Shown here one piece after another: positions 10,491 to 56,232 of a stretch of 64,000 nucleotides of DNA. Under the pieces are notes generated by a model that had not been told where the DNA came from, made no database searches, and was given only the letters and a program-made list of their open reading frames with translations. Within the stretch, counting starts at the first letter, position 1. Each line of letters opens with the position of its first letter. Source of the stretch: Halisarca cf. caerulea (lineage: Eukaryota > Porifera > Demospongiae > Chondrillida > Halisarcidae); contig CAUJGJ010000003.1 of NCBI GenBank assembly GCA_963170055.1, forward strand, positions 1,486,569-1,550,568, in the 5' to 3' direction. A program made the position numbers and the translations under genes.

Positions 10491-12031
10491 GGGTTCAATC
10501 CAGCAGTATCATGTAAAGCAGCTAGCTCCAATATGCGGTCTGCTGTGGAGCACCCTGAGGTGGTGGAAAGCTACCTGGAGGCTGAACTTGCTGCTGGTAA
10601 TCTGGCTGGCCCTTTCTCCCCAGAGGAGCTGCCTGGTGTTGTCTATAATCGCTTTGGTGTGATCCGTAAAGCAAACAAGCCGGGTAAATGGCGCTTAATA
10701 GTAGACCTCTCATACCCTGAGGGCCACAGCATCAATGATGGAATATCTGCTTCTGATGCCAGCATGATCTACTCATCCATCGACGATGCAGCTCGCCTTA
10801 TTCTTGACGCGGGTAAGGGTGCCCTTTTGGCCAAAATTGACATAGCCAGTGCCTTCCGTATAATTCCTGTACATCCCAGTGAGCGACACTTTTTAGGTAT
10901 GTTTTGGCAAGGTCGTGCCTACATTGACAAGCAGCTCCCTTTTGGCCTCAGGTCTGCTCCGGTCCTATTTAATGGCTATGTTGATGCGTTAGAGTGGATC
11001 TTGCGAGAACATGGAGTGAGCAGACTCATCCATTATTTGGATGATTTTCTGGTTGTCAGTTCCCCCGATTCTTCCCAATGTTCGGCATTCCTTTCAACAG
11101 TGCTTCAGGTGTGGGACACTTTGGCATCCTGTTAGCCCATGACAAGATTGAGGGTCCCACCTGCAGTCTGTCATTCCTTGGTATCTGCTTGGATAGCGGT
11201 TCCATGCAAGCTAGGCTTCCAGAAGATAAACTGGCTAGGTTGTGTACTGAATTGGAAGTCTGGCAAGGCAAGAAGTCCTGCACACGTAACGAGTTGGAAC
11301 ACTTGATTGGAGTGCTGCAATTTGCTTGTCGGGTAGTGCCACACGGGCGGCCTTTTGTTCGTAGGCTTATAAATCTATTGTGTGTAGGTTCAAAACCTTA
11401 TCACCATATCCGTTTGTCCAAAGAGAGTCGTTCTGACATCCTTTGGTGGTGTACTTTTGTCCAATCTTGGAATGGGTTGTCCCTCCTTAGTCTGTCACAC
11501 CTGGCTGTGCCCTCTGCCAACGTTTTCTCAGATGCCACTGGCAGTTGGGGTTGTGGTGCAGTATGGGGCACACTGTGGCCCCAATGCCAATGGCCCCAGG
11601 AGTGGGGGGAGCGCAACATAATGATCAAGGAACTGGTTCCAGTGGTCATCGCTGCTGCACTATGGGGTCGTCACTGGTCCCGCGGCCTTGTTCAGTTCCA
11701 CATTGACAACATGTCAGTCGTGCAAGTTATGTCCAAAGGTTCTTCCAAGGAACCATCCGGTTTAGTGATGCACTTGTTGCGGTGCCTTTCCTTCTTTTCT
11801 GCCTATTACCAATTTTCTTATGAGGCCATTCACATTCCAGGGGCTTGCAACACCTTGGCAGATGATATATCCAGGAACCGAACCTCTTCATTGTCCTCTC
11901 AGGTGCCATCCATCCATGCTTGCCCTACAGTCGTCCCTCCTGCTTTGTGGAGCCTACTGGTAGTGGAAACACCCGATTGGACCTCCTCAAGGTGGAGGGT
12001 GCTCTTCAGGGATTTTATGCAGATCGTTTAG
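10491..12031 (+). pseudogene. Ngaro reverse transcriptase and RNase H
   Basis: The first frame shows RT motifs GKWRLIVDLSYPEGHSINDG, LLAKIDIASAFRIIPVHPSE (catalytic Asp), LPFGLRSAPVLFNGYVDALE and the active-site box YLDDF near 11035. A one-base frameshift near 11117 moves to HDKIEGPTCSLSFLGICLDS, followed by the connection domain. The RNase H part has VFSDATGSWGCGAVWG, FHIDNMSVVQVM and HIPGACNTLADDISR. DIRS/Ngaro polymerases carry this RT-RNase H order and make cDNA from element RNA. The RT-RNase H pair is truncated only by the frameshift, not by missing domains. Confidence 0.85.
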
Positions 12032-15458: not shown

Positions 15459-15699
15459 CGTTCTTTACACAAAAGAGCTATCTGCATTAAAAAATGAACA
15501 CATTATCAATGAATAAATTAAATAACGTGTGAAATTGGTATCAGTGCCCGATTTTCAGTGATTGCTAGAGCTTCTTCTCAGTGTGAGTACATCCATAGAA
15601 CTTGTTCTTATCACCAGCTAGCTTCCACCTCAGTTCCTTTCATAGTGCTTGGCAATTTGTTGCTAAGATGCCTTTGATGGTGGTGGCCCCATGCAATCA

Positions 15700-16600
15700 T
15701 CTTTGGACCCATTATGGGGTTGATCACCTTTTTACAACTGCAAGGCCTTTTTTCCAGCAGAAAGAATTGTCCACAGTGTTCCACCCCACAGTCCCCTGTA
15801 CCTATGACATTAACAGAGAGAGAGGACATCAGTGACAAGCACTATTGGAAGTGTGGCACTTGCAACAAGAGAATTAGTCTTAGAGATGGCAGTTTTTTCA
15901 GCAAATCCAAACTGACTCTTCAAAAATGGGCCATCCTCATGTATTGGTGGGCAAAACAATATCCCGTCACTGTTGCAGCCGATAAAGCACAGGTGACAGA
16001 GGCATCAGCATGTCAAGTTTATCAGTGGCTGCGTGAAGTGTGTGCAACCAAGCTCATAAACACTCCAATAGTTCTTGGTGGTCCCAATACAATTGTTCAG
16101 ATTGATGAATCCTTATTTAGGCATAAGCCTAAGTATCATAGAGGACGAGCACCACAGAGTGAGCAGTGGGTATTTGGGCTAGTTGACACCTCTCAGTCTC
16201 CAGCATTAAGTTTCATGGAGGTTGTGCCTCATAGGGATGCCCAAACACTATTACCAATCATTCAGGCTCACGTCCAACCTGGAACCACCATCCATTCAGA
16301 TGAATGGAGAGCATATAACACAGTTGGACAGCTTTCCGGAGTGTCAGGCTATTCCACTGTCATTCACAGCCTCCATTTTGTTGATCCAGTAACTGGAGTT
16401 CACACCCAGCATGTGCATGGAGAGTTACTGGGCTAGAGTGAAGTGGCGATTTAAGTCTATGAAAGGTGTGAGCTCCAATCAGTTGCCAGGATGCATGAAT
16501 TCATGTGGCGGGAAAGATGGAATAAACTGGAGAGGAGGTGTTCACAAGCATTATGGCAGAAATTGCTGCACAATATCCCGTGTAGCAAGCAAATTTGTGT
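15700..16600 (+). pseudogene. Merlin-like (IS1016/IS1595-type) transposase
   Basis: The frame from 15714 has an N-terminal zinc ribbon (CPQC near 15765, then YWKCGTCNKRISLRDGSFF), a helix-turn-helix-like region (ADKAQVTEASACQVYQWLRE) and the DDE fold: VQIDESLFRHKPKYHRGRAP (first Asp), WVFGLVDTSQS, TTIHSDEWRAYN (second Asp). The frame stops at 16436. A frameshift near 16425 restores YWARVKWRFKSMKGV, so the HVESYWARVK-like third acidic region is split between frames. Merlin elements cut and paste with 8-9-bp duplications; I could not find TIRs here. Decayed but readable. Confidence 0.8.
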
Positions 16601-30385: not shown

Positions 30386-30715
30386 ACTGTACTTAGTTTA
30401 CTGCTCCCTCTCTATACTGTACACTATACTACTGCTCCCTCTCTATACTGTACACTATACTACTGCTCCCTCTCTATACTGTACACTATACTACTGCTCC
30501 CTCTCTGTACTGTCCACTATACTACTGCTCCCTCTCTATAGTGTACACTATACTATACTGCTCCCTCTCTATACTGTACACTATACTACTGCTCCCACTC
30601 TATACTGTACACTACTTCTCCCTCTCTACACTGTACATTATACTATAATGCTCCCTCTTTATACTGTACACTATACTACTGCTCCCTCTCTATACTGTAC
30701 ACTATACTACTGCCT
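30386..30715. repeat. 31-bp minisatellite, left block
   Basis: Repeats of ACTGTACACTATACTACTGC-TCCCTCTCTAT. The same unit reappears at 35776-35792, 41155-41176, 48529-48560 and 49097-49553, so one array has been split by successive insertions. Long open frames here are repeat artefacts. Confidence 0.9.
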
Positions 30716-31352
30716 TATGGGGTGCCGTTTGTAAAAATATTTCGATAAAAAGTGATATATGATAGATCAAACGATGTATACATAGATCACATGATATATG
30801 TATATATCAAAGAGATATATGCATATATCAAAATGCTCTACACATATATCAATCGATATATGTATACATCACTCGATATATGCATAGATCACTCGATGTA
30901 TGCATAGATCACTCGATATATGCATAGATCACTCGATGTATGCATAGATCACTCGATGTATGCATAGATCACTCGATGTATGCATAGATCACTCGATGTA
31001 TGCATAGATCACTCGATGTATGCATAGATCACTCGATGTATGCATAGATCACTCGATGTATGCATAGATCACTCGATGTATGCATAGATCACTCGATGTA
31101 TGCATAGATCACTCGATGTATGCATAGATCACTCGATGTATGCATAGATCACTCGATGTATGCATAGATCACTCGATGTATGCATAGATCACTCGATGTA
31201 TGCATAGATCATATATTCTCCAAGCATTTCTGTATTTGGTGACAGCCGTGACAGTCACATGATGAGAATGCGCTGATCACATGAATTGCTTATGATATAA
31301 TGTCTTCTGAAAAATACAATGACATAAGTGTTACTAGCTGATGACCACATGA
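30716..31352 (+). repeat. left TIR with 20-bp satellite (about 17 units)
   Basis: The unit GATGTATGCATAGATCACTC is repeated almost perfectly from about 30880 to 31210. The flanking unique parts, including the segment with ACAGCCGTGACAGTCACATG, match the right TIR in inverse orientation. Confidence 0.9.
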
Positions 31353-31404
31353 TCTTTGATAAAATGTCTGCTTGAAGCACAGTTGCAAGGTTCTTCTAGT
31401 TGTG

Positions 31405-32574
31405 ATGGCACAATCCTTAAATACCAGTCAGGCAGGAAGGCCTACTATAGATATTGATTCGGAAGAGGTACATTTCCTACTATCCAAAGGATTTTCAAAG
31501 ACAGATGTGGCAAAAATGCTTGGAATTAGTCGCCAAACTCTGTACAATAAAAGTCACTCGTGGGCACAGACTGATTTCTGTAAGTATACCCCAATATCTA
31601 ATGCAGACCTGGATCTCAAGATACAAGATATAAAATCCAGTCATCCGAATGATGGTGAAGTTATGCTCATTGGACATCTTCGATCCCAAGGAATAAGGGT
31701 CCCTAGAGCCAAACTTCGCACCAGCATCCAACGTGTCGATCCAGATGGAACAGCTGAGAGAAGAAGTAAGGCTGTAAAGAGGAGGATTTACCAGGTGAAT
31801 GCCGCCAATGAAGTTTGGCATATTGATGAACATCACAAACTTATTCGGTGGCGAATGGTTGTCCATGGTGGCATTGATGGCTACTCGCGTCTAATTCCTT
31901 TTCTTAGATGCCATACTGACAACACCTCCTCTAGCGTTTTATCAGTGTTCTTGAATGGAGTGAGCAAATATGGCCTACCAAAGAAAGTACGGACAGATCA
32001 TGGTGGCGAAAACATAGATGTATGGCGCCATATGATGCATGAATACTCTTCAGAGCGATGTGTTATAACAGGAAGTTCCACACATAATGAGCGGATTGAA
32101 AGGCTCTGGCGAGATGTTCATCGTTCTGTGGTTGCCAACTTTGCTACTATATTTCGCGAGCTAGAAGCTCAAAACCACCTAGATCCTTTAAATGAAGTTG
32201 ATATGTACTGCCTGCACAGTACATACATTCCCGAAGTGAATGCATCACTGGACGCATTTGTTGCTGCATGGAACAATCATCCCATTTCCACAGAACGAAA
32301 CCGCACACCCGAGCAGCTTTTTTTTACCAGTATGTCTGCAAATGTTTGTGATACAGAGGACAGCGAAGATTCTGATATGGACTCGAGCAGTTTGCCATCT
32401 GCTGAGCCTGTGCCAGTGCCTCGATGTGTCTTCAAGCCCTGTACACAGCTGTTGCAAAGTATAGATGATGAATTGCAGAGGTGTGTTAGCCAAGCCAAGC
32501 CACAGTACCTAGCAAGAATTGATGCATGTGGTCGCCATTTAATGAACAATTGTATTAATTGTAATGCAGAATAA
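31405..32574 (+). CDS. rve-type DDE transposase/integrase, 389 aa
   Basis: The first ATG is at 31405 and the frame runs to a TAA at 32574. The N-terminus carries a helix-turn-helix (LSKGFSKTDVAKMLGISRQT, about residues 27-46), suited to binding the TIRs. The catalytic core has NEVWHIDEHHKL (first Asp, about residue 140), GGIDGYSRLIPFL, RTDHGGEN (second Asp, about 199) and THNERIERLWRDV (Glu, about 231), so all three acidic residues of a DDE enzyme are present. The C-terminus is acidic and Ser-rich. The enzyme would cut the TIR ends and join them to a 6-bp staggered target. It resembles integrase-core proteins found widely in fish, cnidarians and sponges. Confidence 0.88.
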   Translation: MAQSLNTSQAGRPTIDIDSEEVHFLLSKGFSKTDVAKMLGISRQTLYNKSHSWAQTDFCKYTPISNADLDLKIQDIKSSHPNDGEVMLIGHLRSQGIRVPRAKLRTSIQRVDPDGTAERRSKAVKRRIYQVNAANEVWHIDEHHKLIRWRMVVHGGIDGYSRLIPFLRCHTDNTSSSVLSVFLNGVSKYGLPKKVRTDHGGENIDVWRHMMHEYSSERCVITGSSTHNERIERLWRDVHRSVVANFATIFRELEAQNHLDPLNEVDMYCLHSTYIPEVNASLDAFVAAWNNHPISTERNRTPEQLFFTSMSANVCDTEDSEDSDMDSSSLPSAEPVPVPRCVFKPCTQLLQSIDDELQRCVSQAKPQYLARIDACGRHLMNNCINCNAE

Positions 32575-32710
32575 CTAACAGACATAGTGTTCCAAATTAC
32601 CAACTACCGACAAGAGTATGTAGACATATTAGCATGAAGTACATGTATGTAGTATGGACATATCACTGTTAATGTTCTCAGCTTATTAACGAAGTTACTA
32701 ATTAGTAGCC

Positions 32711-35303
32711 TCAAACAGTCCCAAAGCCTTGACATCCACGAAGTGCCAGGTCGAATGCTTCTTTGAAATCCCCATAGTGTTCCAGATGCATAGGTATGCG
32801 GAGCACATTGCTGCATGTTGATGCTGTTGGCAGGCCTTCCACAAATGTAAAGACAATCCTTGGTCTTGGCTGAAATCCTACTGGAGGGATTGTCGATGCA
32901 CCTGTTGTGAATGCCAATACATCGCCACATGAAACATTTAACAGGCCATCTTCACACTCCTCGAGGAAAGTGCTGAAGTGGTGCATCAATGTTTCTTCCT
33001 TGGAGCGGTGATTGGATCCCATTTCGGAATAGTTGACATTGAATAGATCTAGGAGCATATCCATGGTCAGCTTCTTCTCTGAAAAAGAAAGCAATGTCAG
33101 AATGATGGATGGATTGTTGTCCATCAATGCTGCAAAATTTAAGACACCTCGCATCCCTTCACGTAGCTGGCACAGTTCAGCATGAATAAGAAAATGTGTC
33201 AAATGAAGCCAAACCGTCTCTAGGATAGAATGGCGACTGTCCATTGTGACACGAAATGTGTATCCACTGTCATAAACGAATGAATAATCATCTTGTGTGA
33301 GACAATCCTGAAGCCCACTGTCATTGTTTACTGTCATCATCTGCAGAAAGGAGATATAAAATCAATTCAATGCAGCCCAAAATTAAACGAATACATTTCG
33401 GCAGCAAAGAAAGAAATAATGTCAACAATACTACACATGTATGGGCAACAGTCTACACATACCATTTCTACTTTTCTCTTGATCTCAGCATCAGGGATAC
33501 CTTGCATCATTTGGGCTTCTGTGCGTTTTGCTGTTGACCCATACACTAGAAAGTGTGCTGTGTCAGGAGTGAAACACATTGGACTCTGGGCACCATGAAC
33601 AATGCCAGCTGCAATAATTTCACCACATCTTTTGAATGCCTGTTTTCCCAGGGCTAAAACATTATGTACTGGCTGTATCCCATTAGCCACAGTTTGAAAC
33701 AGACTTGATGTTGACAGTGACAGCACAAACAGGCGAAAAAATTCCCTCAAGGGACCACCGTCATCAACCGCAGGTTCTCCGATGAATCGCACCTTCAAAG
33801 ACTTCGTGCAATCAAAGGTATACCGGGAGAATGCAGCAATTGCATCTTGTAGAAGATGTGATCGGCGCACATTAATGCGTTGGATGTCATCAGCATGGAT
33901 GGATAGTACGACATCTCTGTGCTCTTGCAGCTTGCCCTTTATCTCAGAGTCAGACACAGATTCTTCAGTGTTGGCACTATACAGAATAATTATAACAATT
34001 GTTAATATTGTGTGTTATCAACGAGCAATATGTATTATTTGATAAACTTTATACTGGCATACATTTGCTCCATGTCTTGTAGACTTCTTCCAATGGCTTG
34101 CTGAATAGCTCCTTCCTCAAAATCATCTGAGAAATCCGACAAATCTTGCACCTCAAGGTTACAATACCCACTGCCAAAGAGGCAAGATAAATGTCTATTA
34201 AAATATACCAGCATAGTGCTACAATCATATAAATCACCTGTATCCAAGCCATTGAACTTCGTCATCATTCATCGTATTGGCAGTCTCTGGATGTTGAGAT
34301 GAGGCAGTTGGTGTGGACTGGCGGTGATCAGACAGGGACTGGCTCACATTAGGATTAGATGTGCTGTGAAAGTCCAGTGTGCAAAAACATATGACTAGTC
34401 ATGTATGCATTTATGTATGATGATTGCAGCCATATAGCTACTCCTCACCTTTTTGTCTCCTCAAGATTGATAACATCTTCGGATAGGCTGATGACATTTT
34501 CTGGCAGGACAAGATCATCTTTAGCCAAGATGTAAATCGTATTGGAACTAGCGAGTCAACGAGATTCTTTCTCACTATAAATCACAGCACTTAGCATCAA
34601 GAAAACTACAACACGTGGTAACAATCTAGAATTAACACTACAACTGTAACACTACAAAGTCCATGTGACTAATGAATAAAGTTAACATAACACAAATCAT
34701 GTTCTGGTTAGAGTGCAATCTATAACTATTCCAACAAATCGCCCCACGTCCGGCAGATTGAACAACATCCTTTGCAGACCATGCAAACGATGCACTAGTC
34801 TGTGGATCAAACAGAGATCTGCAGCCCCCTCCAACAGGCTGAAGGAACTTGAATGCAAATGATGGCTTGTGTCCCATGCTGTCCTTGAAAACTGACCGTA
34901 CTTCCTCCTGTACTTCCCCAAAGTCCATGGAAGAACAAAGTGACACTTTGCCAACCAGACCAAGTCTGGCTAATTCAATACGCCTGCTTCCTCTAGGTAT
35001 TACAATATCCTCCTTCTCACTCTCATATTCATTAGGGAGACAGATAATATCTTTTGTCCACACCTTTGTGATCTTTTCTTTGAGAGTTGGCTGCATTTTC
35101 TTTTTTAAAAACTTTGATGGCATAAAACTGCCAGTAGTGGTATGTTTTCTTGAAGAGGAAGCGGAAGAGGAGGGGGGAGGGTTCCCTCTTGTATCAGACT
35201 GGGTACTGGCATTTGGTAGTGTTCGTGAAAGAACTTCGCCAACCACAGTTGAAACTGCATTGCTGATACTCTGCTGTAAATCATTCACAGTTTGATCAGC
35301 CAT
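32711..35303 (-). CDS. HECT-type E3 ubiquitin ligase, multi-exon, transposon-borne
   Basis: The gene starts at MADQTVNDLQQSISNAVSTV (ATG at 35303). Exon 1 runs to about 34740 and contains SFMPSKFLKKKMQPTLKEKI and a conserved region (FAFKFLQPVGGGCRSLFDPQ). Middle exons lie near 34535-34451 (DDLVLPENVISLSEDVINLE), 34363-34243 and 34170-34050; the last has a ubiquitin-interacting-like helix, EEGAIQQAIGRSLQDM. HECT exons lie near 33965-33455 (VDDGGPLREFFRLF) and 33340-32711. The first HECT exon ends GTAGAAATG|GTATGTG and the last begins after TTTCTGCAG. The catalytic loop LPTASTCSNVLRIP has the thioester Cys (codon at 32813-32815). HECT ligases pass ubiquitin from E2 to substrate. Middle exon borders are approximate. 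Similar host-annotated 'G2/M-phase E3 ligase-like' genes may be transposon copies. Confidence 0.8.
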
Positions 35304-35309
35304 TTTACT

Positions 35310-35775
35310 TACAGACCATGTGGTCATCAGCTAGTAACGCTTATGTCAGAAGACATTACATCATAATCAATTCATGTGATCAGCACATTCTCACCTGTGA
35401 CTGTCACGGCTGTCACCAAATACAGAAATGCTTGGAGAATATATGATCTATGCATACATCGAGTGATCTATGCATACATCGAGTGATCTATGCATACATC
35501 GAGTGATCTATGCATACATCGAGTGATCTATGCATACATCGAGTGATCTATGCATACATCGAGTGATCTATGCATACATCGAGTGATCTATGCATACATC
35601 GAGTGATCTATGCATATATCGAGTGATGTATACATATATCGATTGATATATGTGTAGAGCATTTTGATATATGCATATATCTCTTTGATATATACATATA
35701 TCATGTGATCTATGTATACATCGTTTGATCTATCATCACTTTTTATCGAAATATTTTTACAAACGGCACCCCATA
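35310..35775 (-). repeat. right TIR with 20-bp satellite (about 9 units)
   Basis: Inverse of 30716-31352 but with fewer satellite units (about 35448-35630), so the two TIRs differ in length only by satellite copy number. Confidence 0.9.
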
Positions 35776-37851
35776 CTGCCTCCTCTCTATACCATAGGTG
35801 TAGGAACCGGGGGGGGGGGGGGGCATTGTCCCCCCCCCCCCCCCCCACCTCATAGCCTACATCTTCATTTCAAAATAATCACATAATCTGCTATATAGCC
35901 TGAAGATCACATTGAAAAACTTTAAATATATTATCTTCCACCACAAAGTAAGTTTTTTGTAAAAATCATCTACAAAGAGGAAGTTCTAAACAATAAAATT
36001 GGCATCAACGCTACCATTGGAGCCGCCATTTGCACGCATTGCGCAATCTCTAACACATGTTGTGTAATGGTTTTGCCGTTGTTCGCCGGTAAGATGAAGC
36101 GACAAGTAAATTTGTTTGCTTGCTGGCCTGGCTCTTCAAAACGAGTAGATACCGACGATTCTTACAGATTGAGTGATTCACAGGATTTTGCCGCTGAAGA
36201 AGTGACTTCTTCACCCATTTCTCCAGAGTCAGAAGAAACGATATGCGTATCCTCGCAATCGAGTAGCAACATGTCGGTATCATGCACCGCTGTGTGCTGT
36301 GCTGATCCAGTATCTCCTGCTCGACCATCGGACCGTGCATTCGTAGATAGCACGAAACTGCAAATAGGGCAAAGAAGTGAGTTTCGCTGCCTAAACCCAC
36401 AATGGTACAAAGATTTCCTCTAGCTACATGCATGCCAATCACGCAAAAAGCTATTTTGTTTTTACTGTATGATGGCACATAAAAAGGGCTCATTTCCTTC
36501 TGGCCACTTTGAAACAGCATTTGTTGTAGAAGGGTTCCAAAATTGGAAGAAAGGTGTGGAGCGTTTTCGTTCACATGAAACATCTGATCTTCATAAGGAA
36601 GTGATGCTCAAACACAAGAGTCTTCAGGCACCTTCAATTGTGGACCAGCTGAGTATCTCTGCTAGCAGGGAGCATGCACAAAATAGAGAAATGCTTTCAA
36701 GGTCATGTCAAGCCTTCAATTTTTATTGAAGCAAGGTCTTCCAGTCAGGGGTCATGCAAGTAGTGTTGGTAATTTAGTACAACTCCTTAAGCTGCGTAGT
36801 GAAGACTGCCCTCCTCTATCTAGGTGGCTTCAGAATCAACAGTACATGTCACTGAAAATTATAAACGAGCTAATTAAGCTTTTGGGCAATGAATTATTGC
36901 GCCAGCTTTTGGTAAAGATCCGAAATGCTACATGGTTTGCAATTCTGGCTGATGAAACAGTAGATATAGCTAACCTTGAATAACTTTCACTATCCATTCG
37001 CTGGGTTACAAAAGATTATGAAATTCACGAAGATTTTATAGGTTTGGTCCATGTTCCAACAATCACATCCAAAGCAATTACATCAGCTATTAAAGACGTC
37101 CTTATTCGTTGTTCGCTGCCCCTTTCTTTGTGCAGAGGTCAAGGGTATGATGGAGCAGCCAATATGATGGGCCATTTAAATGGAGTTGCAAAGCAGATAC
37201 AGGACAAGGCAGCTATTGCAATCACTGTTCACTGTTTTGCTCACTGCCTAAATCTTTGTTTGCAGGATGTGTCTAAGAAATCTATTCCAGTAAGAAGTGC
37301 ACTTGACCTGGTATGGGAAATATGTAAGCTCATCAGCTATTCTCCTAAACGATCTCTGATCTTCGAGCAATGCAGAGATGCAATGTCTGTTTCAGGAACT
37401 GGTCTGCGGCCTCTGTGTGCAACTCGCTGGACTGTCCGCACAACTTCTATTGACGCAGTTTTAAGAAATTATCTTGCACTTCAACAAGCACTTGCTCAAA
37501 TCTCTGAGCAATCATATGATGACTATGGGAGGCGAGCACATGGCATATTATCACAACTTGAGCGCTTTGACACTTATTTTGGACGGAAGCTATCCTTTCT
37601 AGTATTCAGTGCCACTGAGCAAGCTTCCAAGGCACTACAGTACAAGAATACAACTGTGGCTGAAGCATTGAGTGCAGCCAAAATGGCACAGAATTTTTTA
37701 ACTAGACAGAGGAGTGATGCATCCTTTGAATCTTTCTATTCACTTACAATTGAAGATGCTTCGCAGATCACAAATGAGCCTGTTCTACCTCGCTACAAAC
37801 GACCCCCAAAGCAAGTAGATAGTGGCAGCTCTCCCCACCGTTTTGCTAATG

Positions 37852-40422
37852 TACTGTTTTTTAAATTCCCGCCTTCTCCATCAATCGATTTCTGAGCCAA
37901 CACACTTTTCTGACGCTTCTAATGCCATTTTAGACCTTTTTATCTCATCATCAGACCTTCAGATTGCGAAATCCCTAGTTCTTCAGTCCTCCTTCTCTGA
38001 CCACCTACCTATCCTCCTTCAACTTAAACTTTTAGTTCCTAAACCTCCTCTGACCTTGATTACTCGCCGTTCCTTCAAAACTTTTTCACAACAAGAGTTA
38101 TTAGATGATCTGAAAGTAGTACCATGGCATGTGATGGACCTTTTTGATGACCCTGATGAAAAGGTAGACACGTTTAATAAGCTATTCTCTGAAGTTCTTG
38201 ACATGCACGCGCCTCTCAAAACAGTAAGAGTAAAAAAGAACCCGACACGATGGATTACTAAATCTATTCAAGATGAAATGGATAGACGTGATAGGCTTTT
38301 TCGTTTCCACCGCCGAAACCCATCCCCTGCTTTCAAAGGTATTTTTAGGGCACAACGTAACCATGCAGTCTGGCTTCAGCGTAAAGCAAAATATGATTAC
38401 TTTTATAAACTTTTCAGCAATTTGGAATACTCTTAATCTTGCCACATCCTCATCTTCTCCTTCTGGTGCATGGTCATCCTTTAACACTGATCCTTTAACG
38501 ATAGCAAATTCACTTAACAATCACTTTGCTTCTGTTAGCTCTTCCAATTTTGTTCCAAGTTTTGATTCTCTTCCCCCTTCAGAGCCGTTCACCTCTCAAA
38601 TCCTCAGTCTCTCTACAACCACACCAGATTTGGTAAAGGAGAGTCTTGCGACTCTTTAAACGTAAGTGTGCTACCGGTATTGATAAAATTCCTTCTTCTG
38701 CCCTTATTGATGCTCGCTCTGTCATCTGTGATCCTCTTTGCTCGATTATAAATTCTTCCATTACTTCTTCAACCTTCCCAACAGCTTGGAAATGAGCTTC
38801 TGTCTTTCCTTTACATAAATCTGGTGTTCAAACCACTCCTTCAAACTATCGTCCTATCTCTCTTCTCCCTGTCGCCAGTAAACTTCTCAAAAGACATGTC
38901 CAGCAACAACTTTCTTCGCATTTAAACCAAAGCAATCTTTTGTTCCCATTTCAATCTGGCTTTCGTCAAAACCACTCTACGCAATCACTCCTTCTTTATT
39001 GCCTTGACCAATGGTATAAAGCATTTGATGACAAGAAATATGTAGGAGTAGTGTTTTTAGATATTTCCAAGGCTTTTGACACTGTTAATCATAACCTGCT
39101 TCTATTGCAACTTTCTCACCTAGGTCTGTCTCCTTCCACAATTGCCTGGTTTAAGTGTTATCTCTCTAACCGTTGTCATCAAACGCGCATTGAAAATACG
39201 TATTCCTCTCTTTGTTTTCCTACTAATGGGGTTCCGCAAGGCTCCACTCTAGGCCCAACCCTTTTTCCTGCTTTTATAAATGACCTACCCTCTGTCCTCC
39301 CTTCCAACTCCACAGTACTTTTTGCTGATGACACAACCATTTTTTAATCTAGCAAATGTATGGTTACAAAAAATGGCCTCAAACTAAATATCTCCAAGAC
39401 CATGCTGATCCACTCCGCTAGAAAAAAGGTTAGTGACAGATTAGCCCTCAGCGTAGAAAATGTTGACATAGAACAGGTTCAAAAGTTCAAATTTCTAGGA
39501 GTAATAGTTAATGACACATTATCTTGGGGTGATCACATTGATTTTGTTTGTAACATCGTCACTCGTAGTCTTAGCCTTCTACGTCGCCTCTCTTGGTTTC
39601 TCCCCCGACCTCTTCTTCTTCTCTATCTCAAATCGTACATTCTTCCTCTATTTGACTACTGTGATAATGTGTGGTCTGTTTGCACCAAACAGGATAGTCA
39701 TCGGTTAGAAACGCTTTTAAACTTCGCTTGTAGAACCGTCCTTCGTAAACGTAGAGATTATTCTGCCTCTTCTGCCCGTAAAGAATTAGGTATTTCAACT
39801 CTTAGTGCTAGACAAAAAGTACACTTGGCCCAAACTGTTTATAAGTGCCTATCTCTACAATCACCTACTTATCTTAACAACCTTTTTCCACACCAGCCTC
39901 TCATTATAATACTCGAGCATTTTCTACTTCACAATTAAACCTTCCACATTTTCGTACTTCCCTTGGCCAGAAGGCATTTAGTTTTGTTGGCACATCATTA
40001 TGGCGATCACTACCAAATAACATCCAATGCTGTGCGGACTTTCGGGTGTTCACTAAACTATGTGAAAATCACTTTTTAAATGAATAACTCATTGACAATA
40101 TGATCTTGTACATATGATCAATCAGACACTATTTCATACTCATGCACCAATAATCTTATCTCATTACAGATTGAATTTATTCCATTCACTAATGTCTCTC
40201 TCACTAAATTTAGAATTTTTACTCATCTTTTCATTCTATTATCTTTTCATCATAATGCAAACCTCAAACTCTTTTTGTTGAATCTTTGTACACCCCCTTT
40301 GTTGTTTTTGTTTTTGCCTTTTGTCCCTTTTCTTTTCTGGGTGCCACTTACAGTAGCCTCTGGCTAAAGGTTCCCCAGGTTAAATAAGAATACCCTATAC
40401 CCTATACCCCATACCCTATACC
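37852..40422 (+). mobile_element. 5'-truncated LINE inserted in the hAT gene
   Basis: CTAATG occurs on both sides (37846-37851 and 40423-40428), a 6-bp target duplication; removing the insert rejoins the hAT frame exactly (RFA-N-AKDYYR). The 3' end has the sequence GGCTAAAGGTTCCCCAGGTT and a tail of ATACCCT repeats, a CR1/L2-like type of ending. The 5' part, including most of the endonuclease, is missing. Confidence 0.88.
37885..39935 (+). pseudogene. LINE endonuclease C-terminus and reverse transcriptase
   Basis: The first piece (to 38436) has the end of an EEP endonuclease (SSFSDHLPILLQLKL) and the linker ITKSIQDEMDRRDRLFRFHR. RT motifs follow: FQSGFRQNHSTQSLLLYCLD, VVFLDISKAFDTVNHNLLLL (catalytic Asp), NGVPQGSTLGPTLFPAFIND and the active-site box FADDTTIF near 39325. 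The thumb and C-terminal part (LKLNISKTMLIHSA, KFKFLGVIVNDTL) follow after a stop at 39347. Frame changes near 38436 and 38660 make it inactive. The linker matches the LINE at 27582, so both belong to one broad family. Confidence 0.85.
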
Positions 40423-42952: not shown

Positions 42953-44652
42953 ATGTCGACCGAAGAGATTATCAAGGATCTCCCGCGTACAGAAGACGCG
43001 CGGAAGCTAGTCCTCGAGTGGCTGGCCAGGGATAGAAACGACGAAGTTCACCCTCCAGCGAGCAACGCGGACGAGTTGTCTGAGTCCCAACACGGTGAGT
43101 CGAAGTACTCTACGGGTCTTCGCGTTTCATGATCAGACACGGCCAGCCAGCAGTACGTCTAATTCGGTGGTTGCTTACCCCGAGATTCAGGGGTGCAGTC
43201 TGTGGGACAATATAACCCTGTGTACACTCAACAGGGGTTCACAGGTTGGCAACATAGTTTTCTCCCCTTTGTACACTCACGGAGGTACATGGGTTGAGGT
43301 TGCAACGCAGTTATCTCCTCGTTGTACACTCACAGAGGTACATGGGTTGAGGTTGCAACACATTTAGCTCCCCTGTCTTACACTCCCAGAGGTACACAGG
43401 TGGAGTCTGCAGCACAGTCAACTCCTTACCATATACTCTCACAGAGGTATGTAGGAGGGTGCGGCGTTACATTTAACTCCCTAGTACACTCACTGAGGTA
43501 CACAGGTGGAGTCTGCTACTCAGTTAGCTCGTGTTTCAACTTTTTGAGGGACATAGGTAGAGCTGAGGCACTACTTACCCTGAAGGGGAAGGAACCCGCA
43601 TTAGCCCACAACATGGCTGTAGGATTTACCGCTTTCATTTCCCCTTCTTAACATACACAGATCCGGATCAGGCAAGTGTGTCTGAGACGATGTCAAGGAA
43701 GCGGCCATCTGACCCTTCATCTTCAGGAGAGCAGAGTGCAGCCAAGCAATCAAAACTTGGTGATTCCCTAGGGAGCCCCGTGGCAACAGTGGACTTCGAC
43801 CCTTCTGCGTTAGTAAGTGCAAAGGAAGGGACCATTGCAGTTCCAAGCCCTGTGAGGGTGTACCTGGAAAAGTATCTCCGACGCTGCCTCACCAAAGAGG
43901 AACGTGGAGCCCTGTTCAAGGAACATCCGAGACCCGACCTGGATGTCACCTCAGTCCCTAAAGTAGACAAGTATATGGTGGATTTCCTGGGAACCAAGTT
44001 CCCCAAAGACCAGGATACAGACCTCTCAAAGATCCAAGCTACAGTACTCGCCTGTATTCGCCCCCTAACCTCAGCATGGCAAGAGCTCTTGGAGGCAGAG
44101 CCCGACAACGAGGAGCCTGTGATGGTACCTGCTTCACAAGTAGTTGCAATGATCCAGCGGACACTATGTTTGCTAGGGAATGCTTCAGAGTTCATTTCCC
44201 AAACCCGTCGTTCCAAGATTTTGGAGGTTATTGACAAATCCTGGGGGAAGTTTGGGACAGAAAAATTTCAAGCTACGGGTTCCCTGTTTGGTGAAGAGTT
44301 TCAAACAAACCTCCCAACCAAGGTAGAGAAGGACGTGGCACTGTCCAAAGCAGTATCCATCCTGAAACGTAACAGGAAGGGTAAGGAGACCGCGGGTCCT
44401 TCTAGTCATCGCGAGGGGCAATCACGCCGTCAGTTTTTTCGCTGGGGCCCTCCGACCAAGTACGGGGGTGGGCAGGGCCGAAACCAGTCACCGTACGCCC
44501 CACAAGGACACAAGTTCCGGGAACAACCAAAGGGACCAGGGAAGGGGCACCCACCTTTCCATCAGATCCGGAACCAGAGATTTCACGAGCCAAGACTCCC
44601 ACCAATGGAAGCCAGTGCGCAAATGCACAAAAAGAAGTTCGGAGACTCTTAG
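42953..44652 (+). CDS. DIRS gag-like protein, two exons
   Basis: Exon 1 is 42953-43094 (MSTEEIIKDLPRTEDARKLV, then LEWLARDRNDEVHPP), ending CACG|GTGAGT. Exon 2 starts at 43661 after ACATACACAG and joins in frame: H, D split by the intron, then PDQASVSETMSRKRPSD. The protein has a helical middle region (VRVYLEKYLRRCLTKEERGA; YMVDFLGTKFPKDQDTDL) and a basic, Gly/Arg/Gln-rich tail (KYGGGQGRNQSPYAPQGHKF) likely to bind nucleic acid. No Cys/His knuckle is seen, unlike the Ngaro gag here. It should form the element's RNA particle. The stop is at 44650-44652. Confidence 0.8.
43095..43660 (+). repeat. DIRS gag intron filled with a 53-54-bp minisatellite
   Basis: A GTGAGT donor and a TACACAG acceptor border the intron. 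From about 43195 to 43560 a unit with CACTCACAGAGGTACATGGG and TTGAGGTTGCAACGCAGTTA is repeated about seven times with drift. Confidence 0.8.
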
Positions 44653-46520
44653 ACTCCTTACCACCCTCCAAACTCCAGAATGTGGGCATCTGTCTGGACC
44701 CAGCTCTGGCTCAGGAAGAAGCAATGCGTCCGGTAGGTGGTCGTCTCCGGTTCTTCTATCGAAATTGGGAGAAAATCTCACACGACCCTTGGATCTTAGA
44801 CACAGTCCTAGGTTGCAAAGTAGATCTCTCATCCAACCCTCACCAAAACAGAGAGCCACATGCACCCAGCCTGGAGGCAGACAAAGCAGAAGCCCTCAAC
44901 ATGGAATTAGAGAAGCTTCAGGACAAAGAAGCCATCGAACCAACGTCACAGGGACCTCTCACCTATGTCAGCCCGATGTTTGTCGTACCCAAATCAGACG
45001 GGTCATGGAGACCAGTCATAAATCTCCAGCATCTGAACAAACACGTACGAACCGAACACTTCAAGATGGAGTCAATTCGGTCAGCGAAGGGTCTCATACA
45101 GAGAGGGGATTGGATGGCGAAACTAGACCTGAAGGATGCCTACCTGGCTGTTCCCCTTCTCCCTGCTCACCGAAGCCTCTTCAGCTTCAACTGGAAGGGC
45201 AAACTATGGAGGTTCACAACTCTACCCTTTGGTCTCAGCAGTGCTCCTCTAATCTTCACCAAGCTCATGAAGCCAGTTGTGGCTTTGATGAGGAAGCTAG
45301 CCATCCGGGTCATTCTATACCTGGACGATATGCTCATCATGGCCCAGAGGGAGGCGGAGATCAAGGGGTGCCTAGCAACAGCATTGGAAATTCTGACTGC
45401 TCTAGGTTTCGTAATCAACCTCCCCAAGAGTGTGACTACTCCCACTCAAGAGATGGAGTTCTTAGGTTTCCAACTGGATTCAAGGGCAATGGTCATCTCA
45501 CTTCCACAGAGGAAAATGAAATCCTTGAGGCAGGCAGCCTTACAGCTGAAAAATCAGAAACAGGTTTCGGTGCGAGCCTTGGCCAGACTGTTAGGCATGA
45601 TGGTAGCTGCCCACCCTGCAGTCTTGCCAGCCCCCCTATATTACAGACATCTGGAGAGGGCACGGTCATTGGCACTCCAGCAGGGCCTTACATACGAATC
45701 AATCATAGAAGTGAACCAAGAGATGGAACCAGATCTGGACTGGTGGATCCACCAAGCACAGCTTCACAATGGCAGACCCCTTCAGATACTACATTGGGAT
45801 CTGACCATCGAAACGGACGCATCCAAAGTGGGATGGGGAGCTTGCTGCAACCAAATAAAAACAGGTGGTCCCTGGACACTGGAGGAAAAACAGAAGCACA
45901 TCAACTTCCTAGAACTACTGGCAGTATTCCTAGCCATCAAGAGCTTTGTTTCAGACCAACGGCAGATAAACATCCTTCTGAGGATAGACAACATCACTGC
46001 TATTGCTTTCCTGAACCGGATGGGGGGTTCCCATTCCCTTCCTCTGTCCGAACTAGCCATAGCAATTTGGCAATGGTGCCTGGAACGAGAGATAACTCTG
46101 CATGCAGAACATCTCCCAGGCTCAGAGAATGTCAGAGCCGACTGGGAATCCAGGCATGTCCAGGACTCCAGCGATTGGATGCTCCACAAGGGAGTGTTTC
46201 AACAGCTGCACAATCAACTGGGTCCTTTCACCATCGATTTATTTGCCTCGAGGACCAATGCACAGCTTCCAGTGTACTGCAGCTGGCGCCCCGATCCGGC
46301 AGCCTTCACAGTGGATGCTCTGTCCCTGTCATGGAAAGGACATCTTCCTTATCTTTTTCCTCCCTTTGCCCTAATTACCCGGTGTATTCAGAAGATACAG
46401 GAGGAGGAATCCAACGCAGTACTGATAGCACCAGTTTGGCACAATCAGTTGTGGTACCCGTTATTCTGGAATGTCTCAGCGATTACCCAATCCTTCTACC
46501 CCCCATCCCGAAGATTCTGA
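44653..46520 (+). CDS. DIRS reverse transcriptase-RNase H
   Basis: The frame is open from before 44580 and overlaps the gag end in another frame. There is no early ATG (the first is MRPVGGRLRFF near 44724), so expression may rely on frameshifting or reinitiation. RT motifs are SPMFVVPKSDGSWRPVINLQ, WMAKLDLKDAYLAVPLLPAH (catalytic Asp), LPFGLSSAPLIFTKLMKPVV and YLDDM near 45320. RNase H motifs are LTIETDASKVGWGACCN, INFLELLAVFLAIKSF, LRIDNITAIAFLNRMG and HLPGSENVRADWESR. All catalytic acidic residues expected are present. The start coordinate given is simply the base after the gag stop. Confidence 0.88.
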
Positions 46521-47562
46521 CGGGCCCAGTTGGCGAGGATCACCCAATGGTACTAGAGGGCCATCTTCCTTTAGCTGCCTGGCCCATCTCAGGCGATCCT
46601 TTGTTGCAGAAGGGCTTTCAGAGGGGGTTATCAACCTCATCAGCAGCTCATGGCGGTCCTCAACTGAGGCATCCTATTCATCAGCCTGGAGGACTTGGGA
46701 TAGCTGGTGCATTAGACGGGGTGTCAATTCCCTTTCTGCTCCTTTGAGTGACATTCTGGAATTCCTACTTGTCCAATTTCAAGCAGGGAAACAATATCGT
46801 ACTATTAATACCTTCAGATCTGCTATCTCCATGACACACAACGAAATCGACAGCAAGAAGGTGGGCCAACACCCTCTGGTTACCCGTTTCTTGAGGGGAG
46901 TTTTCAATAGCAGACCGCCAGCACCGCGATACACGTGCACTTGGGATGTGGACATAGTACTTTCATTTTTGGAAAATGCACCTTCCAATGACCAATTGTC
47001 TTTCAGTTTTCTCTCACACAAGGTGGCCATGTTGTTTGCTCTAGCAAATGCTGACAGATGTTCAGATTTGGCAGCGTTGGATCTCCGACACAGATCATTT
47101 CAGGTCGATGGAGTCAAGTTTGTTATCCCTGGCTTAACAAAAACCCGAAGGTCTGGCCCTCCCATTGAGGTTTTTTACCCTTCTTTCACAGTGAACTCTA
47201 AACTGTGTCCTGTCCAAGCATTGAGAGAATATGAACGACAATCCAAGGACAAACGCCAGTCCAACAAAAGCCAATTGTTTATTTCGGTTCGGAAGCCACA
47301 TGCTCCAGTGAAACCTTGCACCATCGGAAAATGGCTGAAGGCAGTAATGACAGATGCGGGTATTGACACCAATATTTTTACTGCTCACTCTACTCGCGGT
47401 GCTTCAACCTCTAAAGCAAAAGCATTAGGTGTATCCTCACAGGACATTCTAAAGACAGCAAATTGGTCCTCGGAATCCACCTTTTGTCGTTTTTACCGCC
47501 GCCCAATTGCCTCATCCAATTATGGGCAGGTAGTGCTGGGATGCCGATTACCAAAAACATGA
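46471..47562 (+). CDS. DIRS tyrosine recombinase, 363 aa
   Basis: ATG at 46471, overlapping the RT frame by 50 bases. The N-terminal arm-binding domain contains WRSSTEASYSSAWRTWDSWC. Catalytic residues of the tyrosine-recombinase family are visible: Arg in ALANADRCSDLAALD (about residue 197), a Lys in VIPGLTKTRRSG, the HSTRG box (His and Arg, about 305-308), a Trp in ILKTANWSSE and the nucleophile Tyr in FCRFYRRP (about 341). The protein would insert double-stranded circular cDNA without a target duplication. It appears intact, in contrast with the Ngaro copy near 12 kb. Confidence 0.9.
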   Translation: MSQRLPNPSTPHPEDSDGPSWRGSPNGTRGPSSFSCLAHLRRSFVAEGLSEGVINLISSSWRSSTEASYSSAWRTWDSWCIRRGVNSLSAPLSDILEFLLVQFQAGKQYRTINTFRSAISMTHNEIDSKKVGQHPLVTRFLRGVFNSRPPAPRYTCTWDVDIVLSFLENAPSNDQLSFSFLSHKVAMLFALANADRCSDLAALDLRHRSFQVDGVKFVIPGLTKTRRSGPPIEVFYPSFTVNSKLCPVQALREYERQSKDKRQSNKSQLFISVRKPHAPVKPCTIGKWLKAVMTDAGIDTNIFTAHSTRGASTSKAKALGVSSQDILKTANWSSESTFCRFYRRPIASSNYGQVVLGCRLPKT

Positions 47563-50779: not shown

Positions 50780-52847
50780 CGCAGGTATAACATGTGCCTT
50801 TTCAGTAAACAGAGGGGCGTTGTGTGGTTTACAAGGGAATTTGATGTAATATTTACACGTTTTACTGATGTACACGCTTTAGTCAGGTGTAAGTGTATAT
50901 GAAGTTGTCTGCAAGATAATAGTATAGGCCTTTTTGCTCTCAAATCGAAGAATGATATATTGAATAATCGCATGTGGAACATGTCCACGGACACTTGTAT
51001 GACTTCAGGGATCAGAAAATTTATCGTCACTTTTTAGTTTTATTTCTTGCTACAAATACGCAACTAGTACCATTGTGTAGATGGCTGCATTACCTTTCGT
51101 TCGATGTCAAACTTGAAAGAATTTTCTATGTTCCTTGAAATGTATGCACATTCTCCTTAAACATATAAAAGCACGAAAAACGGCTGGGCGGCAGTGCAGC
51201 TTCAAAGCTAAGGGCACAAATGTTGGTATACAGGTTCCTTACCTAAGTATCTAAAACTTCCATGTTGGGGATTTAAATATCTCTAAGAGTTTTAGAGAAA
51301 AACGGTAAAAACCACAAATTCAAACCATGGTAGCTCACCTTTTCGCCTGTAACGTCTGAATCAGGCAATGAATCAAAATCCCCAACATGGAAGTTCTTCA
51401 TTATCCTATAATACAGCCAATAAATGTAAAAAAGTATGCCAATAGGCTTTTTCCCACTGCCGCCCAGCCATTAAAGTTTTTACTAGCCTAGAACTAGCTG
51501 GTAGCCATTTTGTCACATGACCGTCGCATGATATTGAAAGTGACGTCACCTAAAAGTCGAGTCAAGTAGCAAGTGAAGTGGAATACAGACGAAGTCTCTT
51601 TTATTTTTGTACCTTTGATCTTTGATACATAACCTTTCGCCATCGGATAGCTCTTTAAATTCTGCTTTGGTCGCACTTGTAGACGACTTCTATACGAACC
51701 GAATCGCTTTCGAAGATGTTTTTCGGAAGGAGAAAAGATCGATCGAAGAAACTCAAGCTAGGTAAGCCAGACCAGAAAGTTACTGACATGTTCAAATTTG
51801 ATTGAAGGCTTAAGATTCACTTAGTTTCGCATAGCAAGCCTCTTTTTCCTTGATGTTGTTAGAAATTTTGTAGAATGTTTATAATGTCGTCAATGGAAAG
51901 GGGCTGGAGACGCGAGACTAGGATTCACTGTAGCCGAAGGCCGTTTGACTGAAATAATTGTCTATCTTGCAGTTTTAACATCATGTAAGGCTGTTTTGGA
52001 ATCTTTACGTGCACAACAACATTTTCCTAAGTCACGGGCTGGTCACATGACATCTCGTCACGAAGCCATCTAAAGTCGTAAAATTCTTTCTAATTGGCGC
52101 CTCCACTGAGATTTCAAGTTTATGGATATGTCCCACATGCGATGTGTAATAGTCTACACATAAGGTGTTTTTAAGACATTCTAATGGCTATTTGCTTGTG
52201 TTGGGAAAAGTATCGATTTCACTGATTGTTACTTTTGGTTGGTGACGTCATCATATCGCATGACACCCTTGTGATGAACGGCAAAAGAGACACTTCTTCA
52301 ATGACTGAGATTCTTTCAAAAACCCGGTCATCTAAACGGTTGTGTAGAGGAGCCATATCGCAGGAGTTAGATCATGATAAGTGAAGCTAAATTTTCACTG
52401 TTGGAGATTTTAATAACATGCCCCATTCCCGACATGTGCACAGGTTTGTGGTTTTACTTTGTGTGTAAAACAACATTTCGGTGAACATCTCAGGAACGAA
52501 GAGGAATGGTAAGTTCTCCAACAGTGAAAATTTAGATATTGTTGCTAAAAGGTTCTTGACAAAGTATGCATGGCTACATAAAACCGTCGTTTACATGACC
52601 GTGTTTTGTACTAAACCTGTTTTTCAAGTCCTGTGGATCCAAGGATCTGTGGTCGTTTTTTCGGCTTTGCTAAGCAGTGACAACAAAGTTAAGTGAACTG
52701 TTATAGCGTTAAATAGTTGAACTAATGTTTTGTATGCTTTTTGTACTCCACAAATAAACTAAACAGAAGAAAAGTGGCGGTTACTTTCTGCCGACTTTCG
52801 GGCGACTATTTTGGGTACTGTTCACATGTGCACATGTCACACCTGCG
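50780..52847. mobile_element. CGCAGGT-family TIR element with a nested insertion
   Basis: The left end is CGCAGGTATAACATGTGCCT and the right end ...CACATGTCACACCTGCG, flanked by CA (50778-50779 and 52848-52849). Removing the nested element leaves about 0.89 kb. The inner part at 52320-52830 is a reverse-complement relative of 7090-7590 (for example GTGTAGAGGAGCCATATCGC), linking it to the copy at 7069. Non-coding. Confidence 0.8.
50969..52141. mobile_element. CGCATGTG-family TIR element, 1173 bp, nested
   Basis: The left end is CGCATGTGGAACATGTCCAC and the right end ...GGATATGTCCCACATGCG, flanked by AT (50967-50968 and 52142-52143). It contains inverted segments around CCAACATGGAAGTTC and CTTCCATGTTGGGG. 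No transposase is present. Same family as 61933-63121. Confidence 0.75.
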
Positions 52848-53031
52848 CAGTGGCTTGGTGGAATAATGATGTGCATATTAAACTATGAGGCGCCCTTTGT
52901 GTAAAAAGTATACAGAAACTAGGATATATAAATATTGTGGATGTATATACATCAGGATGTACATTCCTATACATCCTGATCATGATCTATACTATGCGTC
53001 CAGATCGATACTATACATCTGGATCTATACT
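52848..53031. repeat. 19-bp minisatellite, left block
   Basis: Units such as TCTATACTATACATCCGGA and variants (CATCTGGATC, CATCCTGATC) from about 52915. The array continues at 55780, beyond the hAT/Harbinger insertion. Confidence 0.75.
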
Positions 53032-53463
53032 CCGGGGCGTAGCTCCATTGTTTCCTGGTTGCCAGGAAACCCCCCTCATTAGAAATCCCTTTAATCTGAA
53101 GCCACCAGTATGCTAATCAATCATGCAATTAATCCCAACGCTTCTCTCCAATTGTCACCTAGCATGTACCTGCGCACATGGTTTCACTGTGAGTACATAG
53201 CTAATGCTGTACTGCCTTCATGCAAGCTTTGTGTTCTTTTAGTCGTTTCTAGCTTGTTTGACACACTAGTTTTCAAACTACCATTACAAATTTAAATGTG
53301 GTGTTCCCTTGCATGCATGTGGACACAGTGTTGTTACCACATGATAGAGTAAGTAAAGGCTATTACGGAGCTTTAGCACAACGTTTTTACGTAACGCTAT
53401 AGATTAGTGTTAACGTTCACACCAATACCAGAAAAGATCTTTAGCATAGTGTTGTGTAAGAAA

Positions 53464-54570
53464 ATGGCGGCTTTGACTGGAGACAAAGAAATGCTTCTAG
53501 CCTCTCTTGATTCAGACAGTGATTATGATTTAGAAGAATTCATTCTCCTTTCCACACTACAAAGGCAGACCGAAAAGAGGGAATTGGAGAGTCTGAGGCG
53601 GGAACGGCACGGAACACGGCTGGATTTTGACAAACTCACGAACGACCAGTGTAAGTTGTTGTTTCGCTTTGAGAAAAGCAACATTCCAGGTCTCTGTGTA
53701 GCACTTGGCAAACCTGAGGACATAGTGGCCCCTAACAGAACGCGCTGTAGTGGCTTAGAGGGACTCTACATTCTTTTAAGAAGACTAGCTTATCCGAACC
53801 GTTTAGAAGATTTGGAGAGTATTTTTGGACGAGGTGTCGCTGAACTTAGCATCATTTTCTCATCAATCTAGTTCTCGACATTCTGTACACCAAATTGCAC
53901 CATCTCTTAGACAGTTTACCTGCTGCATGGCTAACCAATGCTCGTCTTGCACAGGGTGCAGATGCTGTGCACAAGTTGTGCCCCTTGCCATATGTGTGGG
54001 GCTTCATTGATGGAGCAGCCAGGCCTATTCCAAGACCAATACATGGCCAAAGGCTTTTTACAGTGGTCACAAACATGTGCATGCCTTAAAATTCCAGATG
54101 GTGATGTCTCCGTACGGTATCATGGCGCATTTCTTTGGTCCGCTTGAAGGTCGGAGGCATGATGCTGCAATGCTGCAAGAGAGTGGGTTGCTTACTCAAG
54201 TGGAGCAGCACATGAAACGTGGCTCTAGTAGTGGAAACTACTGGATCATGTATGGTGATCCAGCATACCCCAACCGTCCGCAAATTGTGCGGCCATTTCA
54301 AGGAGCACGTTTGTCTCCCTCGGAAGCTGATTTTAATCAACTTATGAGTGGGTGTCGAGTTTGCGTGGAGTGGGGATTTGGAAACATCGTTCGCCTATGG
54401 GCTTTAAATTTGTTGATTTTAAGAAGAACACAAAGATTCTGCTGCAGCCTGTAGCCATGTATTACATTGTAGCCACTATACTTACTAACTGTTATGCATG
54501 CTTATACGGGAACAACATTTCCACACACTTTGGATTGCAACCACCATCACTACAAGAATATTTACAGTAA
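53464..54570 (+). pseudogene. PIF/Harbinger DDE transposase, frameshifted
   Basis: The N-terminal helical region (RCSGLEGLYILLRRLAYPNR) ends at a stop at 53871. A second frame continues LPYVWGFIDGAARPIPRPIH (first catalytic Asp), a third HALKFQMVMSPYGIMAHFFG and RRHDAAMLQESGLL, then YWIMYGDPAYPNRPQIV (second Asp) and RVCVEWGFGNIVRLW (Glu). The last frame ends STHFGLQPPSLQEYLQ. Three frame changes are needed to read it, so it is dead, but every catalytic residue is still visible. The enzyme cuts TIRs and targets TNA-type sites. Confidence 0.85.
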
Positions 54571-55388: not shown

Positions 55389-55779
55389 ACAGCTAAAGGA
55401 AAACTCGGCTAAAAAGCGAAGGAGAAGACAACAATGGACGTAGCTTGACGAATCTTGACCACAGAAACAATAACTGGGCTAAAATCACGCCTTAAATCCA
55501 AGTTGGTAGCTTCCTTAGAGTAGAAAAACGGCTCCATCTCAATCTTCACTTTACCGTGCTAACTCGACGTTATTAGCACCCCTATAGCGTTCGAAACCTT
55601 ATCAAAACCGCTAAATTTTTAAACCCGCAACGTTATTAGCCAATAGCGTAACGTTTAACGCTATGCTAAAGCTCTCTATTATAGTACAATGTGTCCATGA
55701 TACCACTATTCTTGTACACCGTGGGCTCATGTTCATGGTTTTTAGAAACCCCCTTATTTTTCTTCTGGCTACGCCCCTG

Positions 55780-56232
55780 ATGCTATACATCCTGATCCAT
55801 ACCATACATCCGGATCTATACTATACATCCGGATCTATACTATACATCCTGATCAATACTATACATCCGGATCTATACTATACATCCTGATCTATACTAT
55901 ACATCCTGATCTATGCATCCAGATCTATACAGTAACTATACATCCCGATCTATACTATACATCCAGATCTATACTATACATCCTGATCCATACCATACAT
56001 CCTGATCTATACTATACATCCGGATCTATACTATACATCCAGATCTATACTATACATCCTGATCCATACCATACATCCGGATCTATACTATACATCCGGA
56101 TCTATACTATACATCCTGATCCATACCATACATCCTGATCTATACTATACATCTGGATATATACTATACATCCTGATCTATACTATACATCCGGATCTAT
56201 ATTATACATCCGGATCTATACGTCAGAATCTA
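55780..56232. repeat. 19-bp minisatellite, right block
   Basis: About 23 units alternating CATCCGGATC, CATCCTGATC and CATCCAGATC with CTATACTATA. Confidence 0.9.

Follow-up and report, generated by a model that had tools for sequence, protein, structure and literature searches.

A HECT ubiquitin ligase gene is a recurrent component of a DNA transposon family in the sponge Halisarca cf. caerulea, in old as well as young copies. One copy was analysed within a window of 64,000 nt, to which all coordinates below refer unless a contig is named. We consider it probable (roughly 0.6) that the family is an IS3EU/GingerRoot-type lineage in which the ligase is a long-standing second gene that helps the element to spread.

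The copy in the window spans positions 30716-35775 (5060 bp), with TA..TA termini and exact ends, and is flanked by a 6-bp target site duplication (TSD), CTGCCT, at 30710-30715 and 35776-35781. The left terminal inverted repeat (TIR; 30716-31355, plus strand) starts with TATGGGGTGCCGTTTGT and is matched by a right TIR on the minus strand (35312-35775); the inner limits of both are approximate and were set by eye. Subterminal 20-bp tandem repeats lie within both TIRs, the array on the right being shorter, and a 293-nt stretch (30759-31051 and 35444-35736) is 100% complementary. The sharply bounded element with long TIRs described in a first-pass annotation was thus recovered. In the genome the TIR-end pattern occurred 60 + 59 times and a reversed control 0 + 0 times, which excludes a chance origin of the ends. 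The window copy and the complete copies examined start with TATGGGG and end with CCCCATA, and one further copy (L066) starts with TATGAGG. TSDs of 6 bp were also found at other copies (GGAGAC at C172, TGTTAC at L040, TTTGAC at L042, GTCTAC at L043) and at copies lacking the HECT gene (TGTACC at L060, CGAGAC at L061, GTATCG at L062); at the flanks of L063 no TSD was found. Between the TIRs the element almost certainly carries two convergent genes.

The first of these, on the plus strand (31405-32574), is a single exon encoding an IS3EU-type DDE transposase of 389 aa with an N-terminal HTH, and its frame is open in the window copy. It matched Pfam rva_4 (E 1.8e-73) and an HTH, and a profile comparison with the PDB retrieved the retroviral integrase core (1.4e-4). 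Residues D141, D198 and E232, which would correspond to the catalytic triad of integrases, are invariant in 14/14 aligned rows (the window and 13 chosen from 120 matches listed), in agreement with the three acidic residues noted earlier. Directly after the first catalytic Asp, Glu replaces Gly. Judged by its termini, TSD and transposase type, the element fits the IS3EU/GingerRoot group, for which TA..TA termini, a TSD of usually 6 bp and an integrase-like DDE transposase have been described (Kojima and Bao 2023, PMC10045372).

The HECT gene lies on the minus strand and is spliced. Exon 1 (34449-35303) encodes an N-terminal domain, whose fold was examined on exon 1 of the C172 copy. It is followed by exon 2 (34238-34363), exon 3 (34063-34170), exon 4 with the N-lobe (33463-33976) and exon 5 including the stop (32711-33340), which encodes the C-lobe. 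Exons 2-5 form a single uninterrupted frame over GT-AG introns, ending with the catalytic Cys loop LPTASTCSN. Exon 5 matched Pfam HECT (E 4.9e-12), and the Cys of the loop aligns with that of LPTAHTCFN in AREL1. The convergent, spliced HECT gene with its Cys loop was borne out. The catalytic Cys is kept in 8/8 exon-5 rows, chosen from 38 HECT places in the genome. The ubiquitin-interacting-like helix reported earlier fared less clearly: by eye, DDFEEGAIQQAIGRSLQDMEQ in exon 3 agrees with the UIM consensus, but Pfam returned 0 families at E <= 1 for the segments scanned, exon 1 up to the LTR described below and exon 3. With G2E3-like HECT E3 ligases the gene shares the HECT domain and the catalytic Cys loop in the C-lobe; it differs in being encoded inside a transposon and in the absence of a Pfam match to these two segments. 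Vertebrate G2E3 carries N-terminal PHD/RING-type fingers.

The ligase gene of the window copy is not plainly intact, contrary to the first-pass annotation. A 197-bp insert with TG..TA ends (34540-34736, minus strand), flanked by the TSD CGATT (34737-34741 and 34535-34539), splits exon 1, and two derivatives, L042 and L043, show the empty site at its position. Among the relatives of this insert are three pairs with a spacing of about 4.18 kb; the insert was therefore read as a solo LTR, and a reading as a MITE was dropped. Unless the LTR is spliced out, the exon-1 frame ends within it, but 50 GT-AG choices spanning it preserve the frame up to the exon-1 end, some with little loss. Hence we call the gene interrupted rather than dead, and splicing across the LTR could preserve its frame. 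With its HECT gene interrupted and yet its transposase frame open, the copy in the window seems to be beyond its most active stage.

Matching the genome with the HECT exon gave the 38 places mentioned above. In 29 of them a transposase lies tail to tail with the HECT sequence at a gap of 114-1803 bp, which rules out capture in a single copy, and three more are deletion derivatives with a transposase fragment on the opposite strand. At the remaining six no transposase was seen nearby, which counts against our reading; stops are present in four of these. Among the ends listed (100 of 119), all 16 paired TIR-bounded copies of at least 3.7 kb contain HECT sequence. The two genes do occur together in other copies with the same TIRs. 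HECT identities within this association reach down to about 31%. At the young end, copies at C172:1384749-1389432 and C369:4072931-4077566 are 98.4% identical over 4693 columns and have different flanks; both hold a transposase frame of 423 aa, and in both the spliced HECT frame can be read open over about 640-650 aa. Its presence beside the transposase in copies that have diverged, with the convergent arrangement retained, supports the view that the HECT gene is part of the element. Copies without a HECT gene, together with a conserved host locus for this one, had been named beforehand as evidence against this view. Such TIR-bounded derivatives exist (L060-L065) and do count against it, but they are short, and an unbroken transposase was found in 0/6 of those fetched.

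Very probably the ligase has been selected as part of the element. Between the window and its nearest copy, L039, dN/dS was 0.16 for the transposase, 0.31 for HECT exon 4 and 0.18 for exon 5. The two HECT exons gave 0.17 and 0.13 for L031 and L032, and 0.17 and 0.17 for L012 and L013. Constraint on the HECT frame between copies holds for these pairs (0.13-0.31) and not for others, which speak against selection: HECT values were 1.00 and 1.41 for L038/L052, exon 4 gave 1.19 for L035/L047, and exon 5 gave 1.01 for L031/L034 and 1.04 for the recent pair L029/L030, the latter on about 7 changes. Over 22 copies, HECT and transposase distances were correlated (Mantel r 0.59; 0/5000 permutations as high). 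However, the correlation dropped to 0.24 among the 222 pairs with a HECT distance above 0.3.

If the ligase helps the element to spread, it would be made from the element and take ubiquitin on its catalytic Cys, and its N-terminal part would pick the protein to be tagged. The likeliest target would be a host protein limiting transposition, for example one acting in chromatin silencing or in the cell cycle or repair; the transposase comes second, and we name a host factor only tentatively. A ligase that controls its own transposase, through turnover or release from DNA, may instead have a self-limiting or step-control role. The close linkage of the genes and their correlated divergence would suit such a cis partner, and we regard this as unlikely but worth weighing. 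Somewhat less likely is a passenger, a host G2E3-like HECT gene captured once and carried neutrally, with the purifying signal stemming from mixed lineages or dating from a past period. The interrupted gene in the window, the frame-shifted or stopped HECT genes of L039, L040 and L041, the pairs with dN/dS near 1 and the HECT-less derivatives are in its favour; the span of the association down to about 31% identity, the universally kept Cys among the aligned rows, the low dN/dS of several pairs and the recent pair with both genes open argue against it. That a G2E3-like activity might move cells into a phase favouring integration is improbable, G2E3-like being a name by similarity only.

A second gene beside an IS3EU transposase has a parallel in fungi. 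TET+ IS3EU elements there carry an alpha-kinase gene opposite in orientation to the transposase, and a Pucciniales set has a 6-bp TSD and termini TAYGG..CCRTA (PMC12730594). The second gene opposite the transposase and the TSD length are shared with our element; in fungi a kinase and a TET/JBP dioxygenase stand where our element has a ligase. In the available text of PMC10045372, whose elements share termini, TSD length and transposase type with ours, HECT and ubiquitin are absent, in contrast to the 16/16 pairs above, and a full-text literature search for HECT together with IS3EU found no paper. It is conceivable, though we advance it with reserve, that HECT-bearing IS3EU elements are animal-wide, that many 'G2E3-like' HECT expansions of fish and invertebrates are their genes, and that the ligase is an effector disarming a host barrier by ubiquitylation, the counterpart of the fungal TET and kinase genes. 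Transposons with a selected non-transposase enzyme reveal how mobile DNA manipulates its host, and a stably inherited E3 ligase, if true, would be a direct handle, its ubiquitylation target revealing what restrains the element. Before a HECT gene close to an integrase gene is assigned to the host, its surroundings should be inspected for TIRs. An unclassified repeat candidate of Cottus, for which the available text reports no adjacent transposase, has a blastx match to G2E3, a similarity that it shares with our HECT gene (PMC5638112).

The element at 30716-35775 is sharply bounded, as the first-pass annotation had described it. CTGCCT is present on both sides and the termini read TATGGGG..CCCCATA. 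The terminal inverted repeats (TIRs) extend over several hundred bases. They include 20-bp subterminal tandem arrays, the left array having more repeat units than the right one; a 31-bp minisatellite forms the element's left flank. A transposase of 389 amino acids with an N-terminal HTH is encoded on the plus strand (31405-32574; Pfam rva_4, 1.8e-73). Its three acidic residues are invariant in an alignment of 14 rows. The residue adjoining the first catalytic Asp is Glu in the window copy, against Gly in 12 of the 13 remaining rows and Thr in the last. Termini, target-site duplication (TSD) and transposase agree with the features of IS3EU/GingerRoot transposons as given in PMC10045372.

The convergent HECT gene on the minus strand can be read by GT-AG rules as five exons (34449-35303, 34238-34363, 34063-34170, 33463-33976 and 32711-33340), with one frame running through exons 2-5. 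The HECT domain is encoded by exons 4-5: exon 4 with its flanking bases matched UBE3A in the PDB (3.1e-5), and exon 5 matched Pfam HECT (4.9e-12). An eight-row exon-5 profile aligns the Cys of LPTASTC with the catalytic loop in AREL1 and NEDD4L. No Pfam match was obtained for exon 1 as far as the LTR insert. A structure model of exon 1 from the copy on contig C172 (mean pLDDT 71.9, pTM 0.57) weakly resembles ubiquitin-like folds.

In the genome that contains the window (194 Mb, 454 contigs), 38 places matched the HECT N-lobe exon, at 100% to 31% identity, and transposases were sought there with profiles built from the matches. The two genes indeed recur together: an opposite-strand transposase, tail to tail and 114-1803 bp away, was found at 29 of the 38. 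Three places (C369:7712633, C369:10660569 and C182:1049953) are deletion derivatives keeping an opposite-strand transposase fragment. No transposase was seen at six (C369:4569646, 5277223, 5280625, 6858882 and 8345566; C188:2724) within the stretch inspected, which varied between places, covered 1.5 kb on each side at many loci and lay near the contig start on C188. Four of these six matches contain stops. The DNA at 8345566 and 5280625 is 94-98% identical to copies with a transposase, and the C188 place is 88% identical to one such copy. Five HECT-element places form a local cluster of ~30 kb (C369:7701911-7730203).

Copies were also defined by their ends. The TIR-end pattern TATGGGGYGCCSTTTGT, with at most one mismatch, occurs at 60 forward and 59 reverse places in the genome; its reversed control occurs at none. 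From 100 places listed, 30 elements were paired. Among these listed ends, HECT sequence is present in all 16 pairs of at least 3.7 kb. Fifteen hold one of the 38 HECT-exon places, each with a transposase match, and in the sixteenth (L066) the HECT gene is partly deleted and the transposase frame-shifted. Eight pairs measure 1.9-3 kb; two of these are among the deletion derivatives described above, and the remaining six (L060-L065) gave no HECT match. Profiles detected transposase pieces in five of the six, and tblastn an N-terminal piece in the sixth; in no case is the transposase frame unbroken. The last six of the 30 pairs are shorter than 1.3 kb, and the sequence reading covered the pairs of 1.9 kb and longer. 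HECT-less copies exist, and those seen are derivatives. The flanking bases read are common to L064 (C253:5583-7541) and L065 (C29:409170-411065), which may be one insertion on haplotype contigs or in a segmental duplicate. The window also contains relics of another IS3EU copy that resembles the C172/C369 type, namely a TIR end (52884) and a short transposase piece (~56469-56598) on the minus strand, with no HECT match in 51001-58000.

An alignment of the copies C172:1384749-1389432 and C369:4072931-4077566 (4693 columns) shows 98.4% identity, and their flanks differ. The former has the TSD GGAGAC and the latter sits in a TA repeat. Both contain a 423-aa transposase frame, and in both GT-AG junctions allow the HECT gene to be read without interruption over ~640-650 aa, by 24 and 32 alternative splice solutions. 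Judged by sequence comparison, this pair is a case of recent activity of the element with both genes.

In the window copy, HECT exon 1 carries a 197-bp insert (34540-34736) with TG..TA ends and a CGATT duplication; the site is empty in copies L042 and L043. The insert has 11 matches in the genome. On C352 and C369, six of them are arranged as three pairs with a spacing of ~4.18 kb, as two LTRs would be, and we therefore read the insert as a solo LTR. The HECT frame closes when the insert is read straight through, but 50 GT-AG choices across it keep the frame, some costing only a few residues. Therefore, neither intactness, as the first-pass annotation had it, nor death of the window ligase is shown.

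Selection was assessed in 16 pairs (15 distinct, one being entered under two locus names) by the Nei-Gojobori method, which is not a branch test. It was applied to pieces of exons, and some of these come from copies with frame shifts. For the HECT frame, dN/dS was low in window/L039 (exon 4 0.31, exon 5 0.18; transposase 0.16), L012/L013 (0.17 and 0.17; transposase 0.83 on 12 changes), L024/L026 (0.16 and 0.31) and L031/L032 (0.17 and 0.13), and near or above 1 in L038/L052 (1.00 and 1.41), exon 4 of L035/L047 (1.19; exon 5 0.28) and exon 5 of L031/L034 (1.01) and L029/L030 (1.04 on ~7 changes). Middling values were obtained for L033/L037 (0.38 and 0.30), L018/L019 (0.48 and 0.60) and L040/L041 (0.26 and 0.57; transposase 0.87). 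The other compared pairs gave 0.11 to 0.58 or were saturated. HECT and transposase protein distances correlated across 22 copies, many with partial transposases (r 0.59, 0 of 5000 permutations as high). Without close pairs r dropped to 0.24, and deep congruence of the two proteins is thus weak.

The protein database held 1392 transposase relatives at E <= 0.001, of which 120 were listed, and 9 relatives of exon 1 and 20 of exon 5. For five of the 20 exon-5 matches, the longest contig (8133556, 1198508, 9485673, 1498947 and 101723 in length) equals in size that of one of the 120 listed transposase matches, and so it does for two of the nine exon-1 matches (lengths 788941 and 9485673). Equal sizes suggest the same contig, at whatever distance along it, and some matches may belong to a different assembly of the same species. 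The exon-5 relative P0134 is 56% identical to the window and probably derives from another species, because no genome locus compared matches at such identity over the whole exon. As fungal IS3EU elements with TET genes carry an alpha-kinase gene opposite the transposase, according to PMC12730594, members of the superfamily may by analogy tend to carry an additional opposed gene. The ligase would most likely act on the element's behalf by tagging a protein, a host barrier being the first guess and the transposase the second.

Other transposon-like frames are present in the window. Reverse transcriptase frames (Pfam RVT_1) lie at 2785-3465, 10227-11132 and 57186-60734, the last within a 1183-aa open frame. 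An ISXO2/IS1595-like transposase domain (15678-16433; 6.4e-13) belongs to what we take, by affinity, to be a Merlin-like transposon, and a DUF4371 frame (36984-37892; 1.6e-10) is presumably hAT-related. Three further open frames, all long (361, 793 and 377 aa), lie at 43567-47559; the 377-aa frame has a phage-integrase (tyrosine recombinase) match of 2.8e-5, under the Pfam cut-off.
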